This document shows, one piece after another, positions 53,662 to 63,836 of a stretch of DNA of 64,000 bases. How positions within the stretch are numbered: the first letter of the stretch is position 1; every line of letters begins with the position of its first letter. A program made the translations under genes and the position numbers. The notes under the pieces are model-generated. The model was not told the DNA's origin and did no database searches. It saw only the letters and a program-made list of their open reading frames with translations. The DNA is from Paenibacillus sp. FSL K6-3182. Lineage in GTDB: Bacteria; Bacillota; Bacilli; Paenibacillales; Paenibacillaceae. The stretch lies in the NCBI RefSeq assembly GCF_037976325.1, contig NZ_CP150265.1:696001-760000 (forward strand), written 5' to 3'.

Positions 53662-55398
53662 TTAGCTGGTTGCAACGGCCACCCAGTGGCCTTTTTTCAC
53701 TTCCACGAATTCGGAGTGTTCGAGCTCGTAGGGATCAGCTTTGGCAGCTTCCTCATGCACCACCAGCTTCTTCTGTGATTCAACCTTCGGATCGGGTACT
53801 GGGATTGCCGCCAAAAGTGACTTCGTATAAGCATGGATCGGATTCGCGTAAAGCTCCTCGCTTTCGGCAAGCTCAACGATCTTCCCTTTATACATAACCG
53901 CGACGCGGTCGCTAATATGCTTCACCATCGATAAATCATGGGCGATGAACAGGTATGTCAGACCAAGCCTTTGTTGGAGCTCCTCGAGCAGCTTCACAAT
54001 CTGTGCTTGAATGGAAACGTCGAGTGCGGACAATGGCTCGTCGCAGACGATAAATTCAGGCTCTACAGCGAGCGTCCGCGCAATGCCGATCCGCTGCCGT
54101 TGGCCGCCGGAAAACTCATGCGGGTAGCGCATGGCATGAGAAGGATCTAGCCCAACCATCTCAAGCAGCTCCTCGACACGTTTCTGACGATCCCGTTTGG
54201 AGGTCGTTATTTCGTGTACGTCAAGCGCTTCGCCAATAATATCAATGATGCGAAGCCTTGGATTTAGTGAGGCGTACGGGTCTTGGAAGATCATACCCAT
54301 ATGACGTCTCATCGTCTTCATCTCCGAGCGATTTAATTGCTGAAGCGGTATTCCTTTGAAAAGCACTTCGCCGCCCGTCGCCTCATTTAAGCGAAGAATT
54401 GTGCGGCCGGTCGTTGACTTTCCGCTGCCCGATTCACCGACAACTCCGAGAGTTTCACCTGCCTGTATATCGAAGCTGATATCATTAACGGCCTTAACAA
54501 TTTGCCCTTTGCCCATATCAAAATATTGCTTCAATGAACGGACCTGCAGCAAAGGCACGCCTTCTTCCCGCTGAATAATCGCAGGGATGGGCTTCGGTTT
54601 TTTCTTCTCGTCTAAACGAGGCAATGCATGGAGAAGCTTAACAGTGTAAGGATGCTGGGGACTAGCAAAGATTTGCTCCGTTGTTCCTGTTTCGACGATT
54701 TCTCCGTCCTTCATGACGACGACGCGATCACACATGCCGGCTACGACACCTAGGTCATGCGTAATTAAAATAATGGAGGTTCCCAGCTGCTTCTGTATAT
54801 CCTTCATCTGGTTAAGGATCTGTGCCTGTATGGTAACGTCAAGCGACGTTGTCGGCTCATCTGCGATTAGCAGCGAAGGACGGCATGCTAGCGCAATGGC
54901 AATCATGACCCGCTGACGCATCCCGCCAGAGAATTCATGAGGGTACTGATGATAGCGGGCTTCGCTGTTCGGAATGCCTACTAGCTTCAACATCTCGATC
55001 GCTTCAGTACGAGCTTGCTTCTTGTCCAGCTTTTGATGCTTGATCAAGCTTTCTTCAATTTGGTTGCCGATCCGCATGGTCGGATTGAGCGATGACATGG
55101 GATCTTGAAAGATCATCCCGATATCTCTTCCGCGTATGGCTTCCATTTCTTTATCGGTTTTAAAGGCTAAATTTTGTCCTTGAAAAAGCACCTCACCGTT
55201 CTTCACCATGGAAGGGGGAGATGGCAGAAGCCTCATAATTGTACGCGCGGTAACGCTCTTTCCGCTGCCGGATTCGCCTACAATGCCGAGCGTTTCGCCT
55301 TTACGGACCTCAAAGCTGACGTGACGTACCGCTTCTATTTCTTTGTTACGGGCGAAAAAAGAAACCGATAAATCGTTAACTTGTAATAATGTATCCAT
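53662..55398 (-). CDS. Peptide/nickel-type ABC transporter ATPase, DppD-DppF fusion
   Basis: 578 residues with two complete ABC domains. Domain 1 has GESGSGKSVTA, HEFSGGMRQRVMIA and LLIADEPTTSLD. Domain 2 (from about 290) has GESGSGKSTTG, HEFSGGQRQRIGIA and FIVCDEPLSALD. Both catalytic sites look intact, unlike many single-chain pairs. Each domain is followed by an OppD/F-type extension with HPYT/HAYT motifs. The start is the ATG reading MDTLLQVNDLSVSF behind CAGGTG. It is divergent from the permease-binding protein genes across about 220 bases. It should power that transporter. Confidence 0.92.
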   Translation of the reverse strand: MDTLLQVNDLSVSFFARNKEIEAVRHVSFEVRKGETLGIVGESGSGKSVTARTIMRLLPSPPSMVKNGEVLFQGQNLAFKTDKEMEAIRGRDIGMIFQDPMSSLNPTMRIGNQIEESLIKHQKLDKKQARTEAIEMLKLVGIPNSEARYHQYPHEFSGGMRQRVMIAIALACRPSLLIADEPTTSLDVTIQAQILNQMKDIQKQLGTSIILITHDLGVVAGMCDRVVVMKDGEIVETGTTEQIFASPQHPYTVKLLHALPRLDEKKKPKPIPAIIQREEGVPLLQVRSLKQYFDMGKGQIVKAVNDISFDIQAGETLGVVGESGSGKSTTGRTILRLNEATGGEVLFKGIPLQQLNRSEMKTMRRHMGMIFQDPYASLNPRLRIIDIIGEALDVHEITTSKRDRQKRVEELLEMVGLDPSHAMRYPHEFSGGQRQRIGIARTLAVEPEFIVCDEPLSALDVSIQAQIVKLLEELQQRLGLTYLFIAHDLSMVKHISDRVAVMYKGKIVELAESEELYANPIHAYTKSLLAAIPVPDPKVESQKKLVVHEEAAKADPYELEHSEFVEVKKGHWVAVATS

Positions 55399-55615
55399 AT
55401 ATGCACCTGCAATTCTGTGGTTTTCCAATTGAGATTAGGGTAATTTAAAGAGAGATTCTTATTTATACCTGATATTCCTTATATCATGTATAATGAAAAA
55501 AAGTAAGTAACAAAGTTATAAGTTATTGACATATTCCAGTCCATAAAATAAAATCTACTATATTGATCGGAATAATGCAATTTAAAATTACTAGATGGAA
55601 AGGAAGCGGACTAGC

Positions 55616-57058
55616 TTGAAAGGGCACGCAACTGCTACGGGTAATGGCTTTGTTGATCATATCGCCGCCATCTACCGCAAAATGTTATTACATCCAGCCT
55701 ACAGTCTGCTTATATTGCTGTTAGGAGCTCCTGTATCTGCCATCGTGTATGGCGTTCATCAATATCGTAAAACCAAGTACGGCTACAAAGCAATCGCCGA
55801 GGAGACAAGGAGCAAGCTGCTTGCAACGGGGCACCGGGATAAGCTGCTTATCGAGGTTAAGGAACAGCTTGTCCGAAAGCATCGTTTCTTCGGGCAGACC
55901 GTCAGCGCAGAGCAAACCGAGCTGGAAGCGAACCGGTTGGCTGAGATCAAATTTAATGAATCGTTCAACCATGAGCTGGACAAACGGCTTGCCAGCGAGA
56001 ACGGGCTGAAGTTTTCATTTGGCGATACGTATCATGCGTTAGCCTTGAATCCGGCTTTCTTCATCTTATCACTCATTATCGGTTTTCCAATGTATGTGTT
56101 GATGGCCATTTACTCGATGCCTTACTTGAAATACGTTGCGGAACGAATCGTGATGTCAGTATTCGTTATTTTGGGCGTCGCTTTTCTCGTTTTTACAATC
56201 CTGTATATATCGCCGATGAATCCAGCGGCTAACTTATTAGGAGAGACAGCGACTGCCGAGCAGATCGCAGCCTTCAACCATCTGTACGGATTGGATCAAC
56301 CTTATCTTGTCCAGTTATGGGACACAATTAGAGGTATATTTACATTCGATCTCGGCAAGTCATTTGCAGGCAACGAGAATGTTACTGCAGCTATCGCGAA
56401 TAAATTTCCGGTGACGCTCACGTTAACGGTTATCTCGACGCTGATCGCAGTATTGATCGCTTTGCCAATCGGCATTATTTCGGCTACGAGACCGAATTCC
56501 TTTTTTGATTATACCTTTATGTTCATTGCTTTGCTCGGATTGTCGATTCCGAACTTCTGGCAGGCGCTTATATTTATTTTGAATTTCTCAATTAAGCTTC
56601 CATGGCTGCCTGCAACGTATAACCCTGAGAACTGGCTGTCTGCGATTATGCCGATTGTCGTTCTAGGCACAGGGCTAACGGCTGCCGTAGCCCGAATGAC
56701 CCGCTCATCGACGCTTGAAGTTATTCATGAGGATTACATTACGACCGCAAGGGCCAAAGGGCTTGCCCGCAAAAGTGTTATTTGGAAGCATGCCGTTGGC
56801 AACGCGCTTATCCCAATTATTACTGTCATTGGCTTGCAGTTCGGCGGTATGCTCGGGGGAGCGGCGGTTACAGAGAAGGTATTCAATATTAGCGGTATCG
56901 GCAGTTATATCGTTGATAAGCAGTTCATTCCCGACATTCCTAGCGTGATGGGCGGGGTCGTCTATACAGCCATTACCATCTCGATCGTGAATGTTATCGT
57001 CGATTTGATGTATGCGTTTTTTGATCCTCGAATCCGCTCGAAAATGAAACAATACTAA
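55616..57058 (+). CDS. Peptide ABC transporter permease (DppB-like) with N-terminal extension
   Basis: 480 residues against about 310-340 for typical DppB. Residues about 180-480 are a normal permease: [31 protein letters not shown] loop [32 protein letters not shown], ending [11 protein letters not shown]. The first 165 residues are extra: two helices (about 28-48 and 145-165) with a charged, helical, Glu/Lys-rich stretch between them. The TTG start sits 9 bases after AAAGGAAG; an ATG 21 bases upstream has no ribosome site. It forms an operon with the next two genes. Confidence 0.9.
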
Positions 57059-57072
57059 AGCAGGTGCTACTC

Positions 57073-58581
57073 TTGACGAATCCTACTATCAGCAAGCAAG
57101 AAGTCAAGTTCAGGCTGAAATCGAGCCAAGAATACAGTCAGGCAAGCTTCGCTGGCATCGTATCCCTGGCGCTTGGTCTTGTTCTTCTGCTAAACAGTTA
57201 TGTTCCCGGTGACGGGTCATTTAAGCCTGCAGTACTCATTGCAAGCATTGCATATTTTGCCTTCGCTCTGCTCGAGCTGGCGGTATGGGCGCTCATTCGA
57301 AGCGATCTTATCCGTTTTGGCGCGATCAGACGTTCCACAAGGATGCTTGGTTATGTACTGCTGTTAAGCCTTCTAACCGCGAATGTATTCGTGGCAACCA
57401 CGGCGTTCCAGCTCATCAAGCAGAAAAAAAGCGCGGCGTATACGTTAGCTGTTTATTCGCTCCTTACGACTCTGCTCGTATTCGCAGTATCAGCCCTTAA
57501 CTTGTTTAAGCCTTATGTGGCTAACGGGTTTATGATCGGTATGTTTCTATTGATCGTTGCTGCGCTCCTGCAGCTCGCAGCATTGCTGCTGGTCGCTAAG
57601 TATGCAGATCAAGCAGCGATGCCGCGCTGGATGGGAATCGTTGCTGGCATTCTTATTTTAACTTCGGTATCCGGCAACTTGTTTGCATTATTTCTAGGGT
57701 TATTATTGATTGCGAAGCTGCGGGACAAGGGGTATTCATCCGGCTCTAAGCTTGGAGAAGTTGTGGAGCGTTTGTCGAGAAGCTCGACTTCCATGCTTGG
57801 ACTGCTCTTTATCCTGTTCCTGCTCACGCTGTCCATAACCAGTTACCTGACCTTTGATTACGGCCTTGCGGTTGAGAACAACTACAGCTTAATTCTTCAG
57901 TCTCCTGAGCTGGCTTACCCGCTAGGAACGGATAACTTCGGAAGAGACCTGTTCTCTCGTATCGTCTTCGGCGCACGAATCTCTTTGGCAGTTGGCTTGT
58001 TGTCAACGCTCATCCCCGTCTTGATTGGGGGCGTTCTAGGTGCAGTCTCTGGCTATTATGGGCGGCATACGGACAATATTATTATGAGGATATTAGATAT
58101 CCTCTATGCGATTCCTGGCATTCTGCTTGCCATTGCGATTATTGCGGCATTTGGCGCAAGCACGGTCAATCTAATTTTGGCATTAAGTGTAGGTGCGATT
58201 CCAACTTATGCCCGGACAATGAGAGCTAATGTCATGCTCGTATCTACGCTGGAATATGTACAGGCTGCTAGAGCTTTCGGCTCCAGTGACCGAACTATTT
58301 TGTTCAAGCATATCGTACCTAACTCCATCGCGCCGATGATTGTAAAATCTACGCTGACGATTGGTACTGCGGTCATCTCGACCAGCAGCTTGAGTTATTT
58401 GGGGCTTGGCGTCGAACCGCATATTCCGGAGTGGGGAAATATATTAAAGCTCGGAAGCGCATATCTGGAAACGCATGCCTATACGGCTGTTTATCCGGGA
58501 CTTGCGATTATCGCGCTTGTACTCTCATTCAACTTTCTTGGCGACGGCTTGCGCGATGCGCTGGATCCGAAGCTGGATTAA
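57073..58581 (+). CDS. Peptide ABC transporter permease (DppC-like) with N-terminal membrane extension
   Basis: 502 residues against about 280-300 for DppC. Residues about 240-502 are a normal DppC-type permease with [23 protein letters not shown] and EAA loop [31 protein letters not shown]. The first 230 residues add about six hydrophobic helices in a block not seen in standard DppC. The TTG start is set by AGCAGGTG; a GTG nine bases upstream is less likely. Six bases of the preceding intergenic gap suggest tight coupling with the DppB-like gene. Confidence 0.9.
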
Positions 58582-58706
58582 ACATTTCATCCCTTTTTTA
58601 ACCTCATTCATATTCCATCGACTTCTACGTTACGAGACAGGAATGGGCGATAACTGAATGTGAGTTAACATACAAGATAAAGATAAAACAGGAGGAGACT
58701 ACTATC

Positions 58707-60539
58707 ATGAAGAACAAAGGCAAATTCGCCGCATTGTTGCTAATCAGTCTTTCGATTATGCTCAGCGGATGCAAATTAACAACAAAGAACGACGTGAAGG
58801 AATCACCAGCACCAACGCAAGGAACAGAGGCAGTCGTTGACAGTAACCCAGTAGATATAGAATTGCTTGGCATGAGCTCAAACGAGGCTGACCTTAACAT
58901 TGTTCGCGATCAGCTTACAAAAAACGGCTTTAAAGTGAAATTGAATCTACAAGCCGATTACGGCAGCTTCAAATCACAGCAGGACGCTGGCAACTATGAC
59001 ATCGCATTGTCCAGCTGGACTACCGTTACAGGTAACCCCGACTATGCAGTACGCTCGCTCTTCAAAACAGGCGGAGACTACAGCATCCTTGCTGATCCGG
59101 AAATCGATAAATTGATTGATGCGGCTGGTGCTCAAACGCCAGAAGAGTACACAGAAACGTACAAGCAATTCGAGCAGCAGCTTGTCTTTGACAAGGCTTA
59201 TATCGCGCCGCTATACAACTCCTTGAAAGCACAGGCCTTGAATCAAGACGTACTGAACAAGGATTCCGTACGCATCTCGAAGTCACGTTCCCTTCCTTGG
59301 GAAGATGTTGATTTTAAAGACACTTCAAAGCGTGCAAAAGATGCGCTAGTGCTTCAATCAACTATGCCGACACTGACGTCGCTTGATCCAATCAAAGGCA
59401 ACGACGGCTCCATCAACATTATTAATACGAATATGTATGTGCGTCTAGTGAATCTAACAGATGATGATAAAATCACTTCCGAAGGTTCCCTATCTTTGAA
59501 TCATGCGATTGCTGATGGCAATTCCGATTATTACTTTATCCTAAGAGACGATATTAATTTTGCTCAAATCAAAAACAAGCTCGCAGTAGATACTGGCGAA
59601 CGCGTTGGTGCTGACGATGTAATCTTCTCGTTGAACCGCGCGAAGGACAAAAACTCTGTACCTGACCACCGTACGTTTACTCTTCACGAGCATATCAATA
59701 ACGTAGAGCTTGTAACGGATGCTGCAGCACTAGATGCGGTTAAGGTTTCCGGTGGCAGCGACACAGTAAAAGCAGCTCTTGAAAAAGGTCTTGGTTCAAA
59801 AATTTCCGCTCTCGTATCGGATAAGAAGCAAGCGAACAACAAAGAGGGTAAATACCAAGTCGTTAAGCTTACGACGACTGAGCCTTTCCCGCAAGTACTG
59901 AACTACTTGGCTCACCAATCGGCAGGTATCGTGTCCAAGAAACAAGTAGAGAGCATCAACACGTACGATGTAGCTAAATTCGATGTGAACAAAGATATTC
60001 CTTACGGCGACCAAAATACGGTAACAGAAGGCAGCGCGTATAACAACACATTGTTTACAAGCGGTCCTTACATCCTGTCCTCCAAAAATGATTACGAGGC
60101 AATTTTCTACAAAAACCCTGCGTATATGAAGGGTACAGAAAATGAGCCGAATATCGCTAATATTAAAATCCGCTTTATCAAAGACGCAGACAGCAGCTTG
60201 TCCGCGCTCCGCAGTGGTGAGATTCACATCTACTACGGCGTATCCGAGACGAAATTTGACGTTGTGAAGGGCGACAGCAAGCTGGCGCTTCAAACCGTAC
60301 AAAGCAATGCTGTTTCTTACTTGCTGTTCAATACAAAAAATCGTCCAGTTGCAGAAAGCGCAGACCTGCGGAAAGCAGTTCTATACTCCATCAACCAGGA
60401 TGAAATCTTGGCATTCTACAATGGCAACAAGTTCAAAGCCGTTTCCACGCTTAGCCCGCTTGTGAATACAGGCATGGAGCTGAAAGCTGATCCGGCGAAA
60501 GCGAAAGAATTCCTAAACGCCTACAAAGCAAGCAAGTAA
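58707..60539 (+). CDS. SBP family 5 binding lipoprotein, apparently circularly permuted
   Basis: 610 residues. The lipobox MLSGC puts the acylated Cys at 22, followed by a 25-residue linker. Residues about 50-200 (IELLGM, IVRDQLTKNGFKVKL, YDIALSSWTTVTGNPDYAVRSLF, DPEIDKLIDAA, FDKAYIAPLYNS) match the segment normally at the C-terminus of DppA/OppA proteins. Residues about 212-600 start with the usual mature N-terminus (DALVLQSTMPTLTSLDP) and run to RKAVLYSINQDEILAFYNG and LKADPAKAKEFLNAYK, the point where the C-terminal segment should follow. This is circular permutation. ATG behind GGAGGAG. A terminator follows. Ligand unknown. Confidence 0.9.
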   Translation: MKNKGKFAALLLISLSIMLSGCKLTTKNDVKESPAPTQGTEAVVDSNPVDIELLGMSSNEADLNIVRDQLTKNGFKVKLNLQADYGSFKSQQDAGNYDIALSSWTTVTGNPDYAVRSLFKTGGDYSILADPEIDKLIDAAGAQTPEEYTETYKQFEQQLVFDKAYIAPLYNSLKAQALNQDVLNKDSVRISKSRSLPWEDVDFKDTSKRAKDALVLQSTMPTLTSLDPIKGNDGSINIINTNMYVRLVNLTDDDKITSEGSLSLNHAIADGNSDYYFILRDDINFAQIKNKLAVDTGERVGADDVIFSLNRAKDKNSVPDHRTFTLHEHINNVELVTDAAALDAVKVSGGSDTVKAALEKGLGSKISALVSDKKQANNKEGKYQVVKLTTTEPFPQVLNYLAHQSAGIVSKKQVESINTYDVAKFDVNKDIPYGDQNTVTEGSAYNNTLFTSGPYILSSKNDYEAIFYKNPAYMKGTENEPNIANIKIRFIKDADSSLSALRSGEIHIYYGVSETKFDVVKGDSKLALQTVQSNAVSYLLFNTKNRPVAESADLRKAVLYSINQDEILAFYNGNKFKAVSTLSPLVNTGMELKADPAKAKEFLNAYKASK

Positions 60540-60552
60540 CTTTTAATATTGG

Positions 60553-60599
60553 CAAGAGACTGCCTCCGGTTATCCATGATGACCGGGGCAGTCTCTTTC
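60553..60599 (+). terminator. Terminator after binding-protein gene
   Basis: The arms AGAGACTGCC and GGCAGTCTCT, with an inner CCGGT/ACCGG stem, are followed by TTT. Confidence 0.85.
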
Positions 60600-62900: not shown

Positions 62901-63242
62901 ATGGATGTTTTTCTTATGAATGCTAACGTTATGAGTGCCTTGGCTGAGCCTAACCGCCTGCAGATTGTTGACCTATTGCGAGCGAGTCCTCTAACGGTTG
63001 GGGAGATTGCTGAAAGGCTTGGCTTACGGCAGCCCCAAGCTTCCAAGCATTTGCGCGTCCTTAGCGAGGCCGGTATTGTTGAGGTGCAGGCGATTGCTAA
63101 CCGTCGTATATACAAGCTGCGTCCTGATCCGTTTAAGGAATTAGACGCTTGGCTGGAATCATACCGACGTATGTGGGAGGAACGCTACGATCGGCTGGAC
63201 GATTATTTATTGGAGCTGCAAAACAAGGAAACAGATAAGTAA
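62901..63242 (+). CDS. ArsR family transcriptional regulator
   Basis: The 113-residue winged helix has ALAEPNRLQIVDLLRASPLTVGEIAERLGLRQPQASKHLRVLSEAGIVEVQAIANRRIYKLRPDPFKELDAWLESYR. No cysteine pair is present, so metal sensing is unlikely. This branch is commonly paired with an AHSA1-domain gene, as here. The ribosome site is weak; ATG at 62901 or 62916 are both possible. Two palindromes upstream suggest autorepression. Confidence 0.9.
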   Translation: MDVFLMNANVMSALAEPNRLQIVDLLRASPLTVGEIAERLGLRQPQASKHLRVLSEAGIVEVQAIANRRIYKLRPDPFKELDAWLESYRRMWEERYDRLDDYLLELQNKETDK

Positions 63243-63302
63243 GATTAGCAATAAGACATAAACGGATTAATGATATAAACAAATTTGAGGAGGATGTTTA
63301 TT

Positions 63303-63836
63303 ATGACTAACCCTAACCTAACTAATCAATTGGTATCTAAAGTAGAAGGCAGCACACTTATATTGGAGCGTGTGTTTCAAGCACCGCGCGAGCTTGTATT
63401 TAAAGCTTTCTCGGAGGCAGAGCATTTAAAACATTGGTGGGGACCAAAAGGCTGGACTATACCTGTATGCAACGTCGACTTTCGTCCAGGTGGAACTTGG
63501 CATTATTGCATGAAGTGTGAAGATAAGAACCAAGGCGATTTCTACGGTATGGAATCGTGGGGTAAAGCATTCTATCAGGAGATTACAGCACCGGAGCAGA
63601 TCGTCTATAGAGATTGTTTCTCGGATGCAGAAGGCAATGTTGCGGAAAATATGCCGCAAATGATGGTTACACTCGATTTTATTGAGCAAGATGGCAAGAC
63701 GAAGCTAGTTAACACCGCGAAATATGCATCGCCAGAAGCTTTGCAAACGGTGATTGATATGGGAATGATTCCAGGTATAACGCAAACGTTTGAAAACTTG
63801 GATGTTCATCTGGAAAAGCTGCAACAGAGCAATTAA
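63303..63836 (+). CDS. SRPBCC/AHSA1-domain protein
   Basis: The 177-residue START-like fold opens LILERVFQAPRELVFKAFSEAEHLKHWWGPKGWTIPVCNVDFRPGGTWHYCM and ends with a long helix (IPGITQTFENLDVHLEKL). The fold holds hydrophobic ligands in a central cavity; the ligand is not known. The ATG follows GAGGAGG at good spacing, not the earlier TTG. It is paired with the ArsR gene 60 bases upstream. Confidence 0.9.
   Translation: MTNPNLTNQLVSKVEGSTLILERVFQAPRELVFKAFSEAEHLKHWWGPKGWTIPVCNVDFRPGGTWHYCMKCEDKNQGDFYGMESWGKAFYQEITAPEQIVYRDCFSDAEGNVAENMPQMMVTLDFIEQDGKTKLVNTAKYASPEALQTVIDMGMIPGITQTFENLDVHLEKLQQSN

Follow-up and report, generated by a model that had tools for sequence, protein, structure and literature searches.

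A probable natural circular permutant of the family-5 substrate-binding fold at a Gis-type importer locus of Paenibacillus

Family 5 substrate-binding proteins (SBPs; Pfam SBP_bac_5, cluster C), among them DppA, OppA, GsiB, HbpA, and NikA, make up a large family of receptors that serve importers in bacteria. A glutathione importer of Staphylococcus aureus, Gis, has been described with the gene order gisABCD-ggt, in which gisA is presumed to be divergent, and five transposon mutants, one for each of these genes, grew poorly on GSSG and GSH (PMC10355420). Mutants of the system are reported to use glutathione poorly as a source of sulfur, the defect being clearest when glutathione is low; at low GSH, growth is reported to depend solely on Gis, as tested with a gisD mutant (PMC12510641). 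In the homology search of PMC10355420, only S. aureus and its close relatives had the complete system.

Natural circular permutation is already known from SBPs of other clusters. TpMglB-2 (Tp0684) of Treponema pallidum resembles the protein described below in being a lipoprotein SBP of an ABC importer that has a permuted topology and has kept ligand binding, but it has a type I (cluster B) sugar-binding fold, belongs to another family, and has a different break point; its authors suggested the designation "Cluster Bc" and mentioned that an adaptation to anchoring might be involved (PMC4990184). Glycine betaine-binding and molybdate-binding proteins and CysB, grouped by CPSARST, are likewise cases of natural permutation among SBP-fold proteins, although they represent other SBP clusters, were found by structure, and share less than 24% identity (PMC2395249). 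In the accessible text of PMC9732360, circular permutation refers to permuted GFP only, and the stem "permut" is absent from the main text, as available, of PMC10355420, PMC12510641, PMC5020093, and PMC5727369. No report of a permuted family-5 SBP was found in the open-access literature searched.

The importer locus

The window, that is, the whole 64,000-nucleotide stretch of Paenibacillus sp. FSL K6-3182 analyzed here (contig NZ_CP150265.1, positions 696,001 to 760,000), carries a divergent double ATPase gene and an operon encoding two permeases and an SBP, which is the Gis layout:

53662..55428, minus strand: gisA-like double ATPase with two ABC_tran domains, OppD/OppF-like and fused, divergent (profile matches)
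55526..55554, plus strand: possible sigma-70-type promoter of gisBCD, TTGACA-17-TAAAAT, 11/12 (consensus scan whose overall count was not above that of shuffles)
55595..57058, plus strand: gisB-like permease of the DppB type, whose residues 1-177 are an N-terminal extension (profile matches)
57064..58581, plus strand: gisC-like permease of the DppC type with an N-terminal extension of ~229 residues containing about six hydrophobic segments (profile matches)
58690..58697, plus strand: ribosome-binding site of the SBP gene, AGGAGGAG (read in the sequence)
58707..60539, plus strand: gisD-like gene for a circularly permuted SBP_bac_5 lipoprotein of 610 aa (profile, rotation, and profile-profile comparison)
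60564..60588, plus strand: possible terminator hairpin of 11 pairs 3' of gisD (consensus scan whose overall count was not above that of shuffles)

Scans of the whole window for tRNAs and Rfam families gave no matches. The same layout, with gisA on the opposite strand to gisB, gisC, and gisD, recurs in 58 of the 59 loci examined, the lone exception being Alkaliphilus, where two separate ATPase genes run in the same direction.

The permease extensions occupy 55595-56125 (GisB) and 57064-57750 (GisC), with extra hydrophobic segments in both; GisC of the staphylococcal locus is shorter, at 390 residues. When 249 genomes of the phylum were searched with GisC, a match to the full extension was found, among the matches listed, only in the window genome and in G066, which are also the two genomes with a permuted SBP, and the remaining listed matches start at residue 155 or later, most of them after 217. 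This co-occurrence suggests that the extensions belong with the permutation.

Segment order of the receptor

The 610-residue product of the gene carries the signal peptide, lipobox, and cysteine of a bacterial lipoprotein, and its parts are arranged as follows, all on the plus strand:

58707..58772: signal peptide and lipobox (LSGC), residues 1-22, with Cys22 the expected lipid anchor (sequence)
58773..58847: low-complexity linker, residues 23-47, which connects Cys22 with the first folded segment (not covered by the SBP profile match)
58848..59321: canonical C-terminal segment, now first, residues 48-205, profile ~350-491 plus tail (PDB matches, profiles)
59301..59351: junction of the old C-terminus and old N-terminus, residues ~199-215 (gap between the two profile matches)
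59325..60518: N-terminal and middle parts of the canonical chain, now second, residues 207-604, profile 21-337 (profile and PDB matches)
60519..60539: new C-terminus directly behind the DPAKAKEFLNAY helix, followed by the stop (sequence; comparison of relatives)

SBP_bac_5 (PF00496) is the sole Pfam family matched, and the protein as a whole scores 141.4 bits against a curated cut-off of 32.4. The match falls into two stretches, and the canonical succession of N-terminal, middle, and C-terminal segments is replaced by one in which the C-terminal segment comes first: the better stretch aligns residues 269-605 with profile positions 13-275, and upstream of it bases 58881-59078 (G000:C1:754881-755078), which sit in a 645-codon open frame and by themselves reach 30.2 bits, align with positions 301-366. 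A profile built from 33 canonical family-5 SBPs of the same genome and its relatives, with the HTH-fused L006-L008 left out, gave the same picture in the native order, residues 54-184 aligning with positions 354-491 (4e-14, 48 bits) and residues 207-604 with positions 21-337 (9e-36, 119 bits). It took the place of a poorer profile of eight own-genome open reading frames, which included one wrong frame (a permease, from L005) and L006-L008 (HTH-fused as judged by eye) and with which a rotation peak was already visible.

Rotation of the sequence in silico turned the two reversed matches into one continuous match of 174 bits. In the six best rotations, whose starts fall at residues 185-215, a single match runs from profile positions 21-37 to 489-491 (173-174 bits), and the best match in each of the three worst rotations reaches 81-84 bits. 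As a control, each canonical protein was left out of the profile used to score it, and all 33 peaked at their native start or at most 24 residues from it. Profile-profile comparison likewise aligned the native order in two separate pieces (E 5e-29 and 7e-13) and the rotated order in a single piece of 458 columns (E 6e-42). In an independent collection of 72,556 plasmid records, tblastn with the native query matched 27 records, only 1 of which covered 80% or more of the query in one place, and with the rotated query it matched 530, of which 295 reached at least 80% cover. The structural relatives of the protein in the PDB include 5u4o, 3tpa, 1dpp, and 1uqw, and the SBP chain 3m8u is matched in the reversed order, query residues 226-321, 445-603, and 65-158 corresponding to chain residues 16-107, 177-337, and 369-466.

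The first-pass annotation of this DNA, made from the letters alone, had proposed such a reversal, and its reading holds up. The C-terminal-type segments that it quoted, from IVRDQLTKNGFKVKL through PLYNS, lie at residues ~65-172; the usual mature start, which it put at about 212, is found there, with D212 opening DALVLQS; and the chain does end at DPAKAKEFLNAY (residues 595-606 of 610). Two findings would have spoken against it at the level of sequence, namely, a collinear full-length profile alignment, of which none was found in the native order, and a second C-terminal segment at the chain end, which is absent (a median of 9 residues, range 0-62, follows the last match in 343 relatives). An ordinary collinear SBP with an unrelated domain added at its N-terminus could draw on the modest scores of the N-terminal segment when taken alone (48 bits with the canonical profile, 30 bits and below the cut-off with Pfam), but residues 54-184 follow the order of the canonical C-terminal profile region (354-491) and PDB SBP chains are matched in the same reversed order. 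At the level of sequence, this order, together with the lack of a C-terminal segment at the chain end, rules such an architecture out, and we consider it highly improbable.

The protein is continuous with the family after rotation, its old termini are joined, and no segment is duplicated, as expected of a circular permutant. In the profile alignments, residues ~199-215 connect the old C-terminal tail directly to the old first strand, adding hardly any linker or none, and the chain is opened in the canonical loop (profile positions ~338-353) that leads from the DPAKAKELL helix to the strand behind it. Among the 27 sequences of alignment A1 this junction does not vary in length; the linker of ~25 residues from Cys22 to the first strand varies in both length and sequence. 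Once rotated, the protein is homologous over nearly the whole chain to DppA, OppA, GsiB, HbpA, and NikA, from which it differs in segment order, in having about 19-30% identity, and in two insertions, both within residues 207-604.

With a probability of roughly 85%, then, a natural circular permutation of the family-5 (cluster C) SBP fold has produced this protein, which serves a Gis-type ABC importer as its lipid-anchored receptor, and its fold would be restored in spite of the new order. The reversed order could also be accommodated by a swapped dimer, in which the N-terminal segment of one molecule completes the fold of its neighbor; the junction, however, is short, constant in length, and joins the canonical termini nearly without a linker, which favors closure within one chain and leaves the dimer improbable.

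Relatives, distribution, and origin

Homologues with the same order, which the first-pass annotation had proposed to seek, are numerous; that they make up a conserved family with S. aureus GisD among its members had escaped that annotation. A protein search returned 1423 matches at E <= 1e-10 among 8000 candidates scored, and the permuted order is present in 344 of 346 retrieved relatives (343 by a script rule and P0117, one profile position short of that rule, by hand), the other two (L115 and L120) being fragments and none being collinear; since these relatives include near-copies and were retrieved through likeness to permuted queries, the count indicates consistency rather than frequency. 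A lipobox-like motif is present in 331 of 343 relatives. An error of assembly or annotation, as a source of the unusual order, is ruled out by this recurrence across many genomes and metagenomes, and by full-length relatives at 94-98% identity in named isolates; its probability is negligible.

The staphylococcal receptor is among these relatives. P0122, a 591-residue S. aureus protein, has the same order (canonical C-terminal part at 52-175, N-terminal part at 212-582), an 18-residue signal before its cysteine, and the lipobox LSGC followed by GVPT, in agreement with the table entries for SAUSA300_0203 in PMC5020093 and PMC5727369. In a genome encoding P0122 at 100% identity (rounded), the genes run gisA (on the opposite strand), gisB, gisC, gisD, and ggt. 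The signal, the lipobox, and the match to the published gene order indicate that P0122 is GisD, and if it is, a receptor of permuted order does its work in living cells. GisD of S. aureus shares with the window protein the permuted order, the LSGC lipobox, and a divergent gisA beside gisBCD; the window protein is 39-40% identical to two staphylococcal members, and ggt, which lies behind gisD in Staphylococcus, is not at the window locus. With GisD in the family, an assumption of standard order would misplace both the anchor and the binding-site residues of GisD. For the window protein, linear profiles return just a partial, two-piece match.

GisD-like proteins of 65-76% identity also occur beyond the S. 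aureus group (P0129 and P0135, from records named S. gallinarum and S. warneri), a wider spread in staphylococci than the distribution described in PMC10355420. In the staphylococcal genus, 11 of 81 genomes have a match (query P0122, E <= 1e-50). Three 873-residue proteins (P0124, P0125, and P0126, the last named S. aureus) join a truncated GisC permease, in frame, to a GisD that lacks the signal peptide, possibly through a deletion in those strains. The fragment L115 comes from a linear S. aureus "plasmid" record (NZ_CP077929.1) in which Gis genes occur twice, in opposite directions, flanking a broken gisD; the record looks like a chromosome fragment or an assembly artefact.

At E <= 1e-20, with three to six candidates scored per genome and the window genome included in each count, matches were found in 55 of 197 genomes at the family level, 35 of 398 at the class level, and 4 of 398 at the phylum level. 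The distribution is patchy, in that the genus of the host has 3 genomes with a match and at least 18 without in the family-level search. Hosts include Paenibacillus, Bacillus australimaris, B. xiamenensis, Lederbergia, Sporosarcina, Cytobacillus, Neobacillus, Lentibacillus, and the clostridium Alkaliphilus peptidifermentans, and one copy is on a Metabacillus plasmid. Within the same family as the host, two genes appear to be broken, one whose match is split in two pieces (L121, in G580) and one with an internal stop (G521:C5:359783-361591).

Across 13 genomes searched with the SBP_bac_5 profile, reversed two-piece matches occurred at two loci only, the window locus and its ortholog in G564. 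A rotated query, with up to four candidates scored per genome, detected no close canonical-order sister in 299 genomes; 15 had a match, comprising 2 permuted proteins, whose longer piece scored 664-870 bits, and 13 of canonical order, which scored 57-73 bits with no more than 30% identity. In a tree, 13 rotated permuted sequences fall on one side of a branch with an SH-aLRT of 100 and a long stem; as this was a quick tree in which long branches meet, it speaks for one cluster and its sister placement is unreliable. The simplest reading is a single, old permutation event, which probably would have proceeded by duplication, fusion, and trimming; no evolutionary intermediate was found. A conserved family-5 permutant can inform how circular permutants arise and persist.

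Ligand and tether

The cleft of the permuted receptor would hold a peptide-like ligand (glutathione, a related gamma-glutamyl peptide, or a short peptide), which would be passed to GisB and GisC. For the window species, glutathione or a related peptide is our best guess, and for glutathione itself the odds seem roughly even. The rival reading, that the permuted SBP of Paenibacillus binds another short peptide, an opine, or a metal chelate rather than glutathione, has slightly less than an even chance. A ggt gene would be expected in the operon after gisD, but the sole ggt match of the window genome is distant (G000:C1:7231925). Among 18 genomes with a permuted gene, ggt is adjacent in 2, both staphylococcal, and present but not adjacent in 13, with no match in the remaining 3 (G722, G751, and G936); none of the 16 non-staphylococcal genomes searched therefore has an adjacent ggt, so that outside Staphylococcus glutathione is a putative ligand. 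The genes 3' of gisD also differ among the ten loci listed, when compared by length and position only. Against the rival stand the layout held in common with gisABCD and the many positions at which the Paenibacillus and staphylococcal proteins do not vary.

One residue bears on both sides of this question. At Trp+3 the window protein has Val107, invariant in alignments A1 and A2, in place of the Asp of DppA (chain 5f1q) and of L001, an SBP of the same genome. The Asp of DppA we take to be the binder of the peptide amino group. The replacement suggests that ligand recognition is probably unlike that of Dpp and Opp, in keeping with a ligand of another kind, but Asp is not universal at this position in the family, being Arg in 3tpa and Ala in 5u4o.

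In the proposed permutant, the lipid tether would no longer enter lobe I but lobe II, in its domain III, at a point just ahead of a strand and loop which, in DppA-like proteins, form part of the lining of the ligand site. The family is in this respect a natural experiment on whether the lobe that bears the tether matters for transport. It is a tentative further idea, which we hold to be less probable than not by a clear step, that Gis-type importers form a distinct architectural class in which the lobe II tether co-evolved with the extra N-terminal membrane segments of the two permeases, with a cycle of docking or delivery unlike that of Dpp and Opp.

Two further features lie 3' of gisD in the window. 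The protein of 151 aa encoded at 60642-61097 matches no Pfam or NCBIfam family significantly; in 38 of 59 loci gisD is likewise followed by a homologue of it, all in records titled Paenibacillus or Paenibacillaceae apart from Bacillus sp. FJAT-28004. At 62901-63836 there is an ArsR-like regulator gene followed by one for an SRPBCC/AHSA1-like protein (named by eye), and a similar pair is found 3' of gisD on the Metabacillus plasmid (L116).
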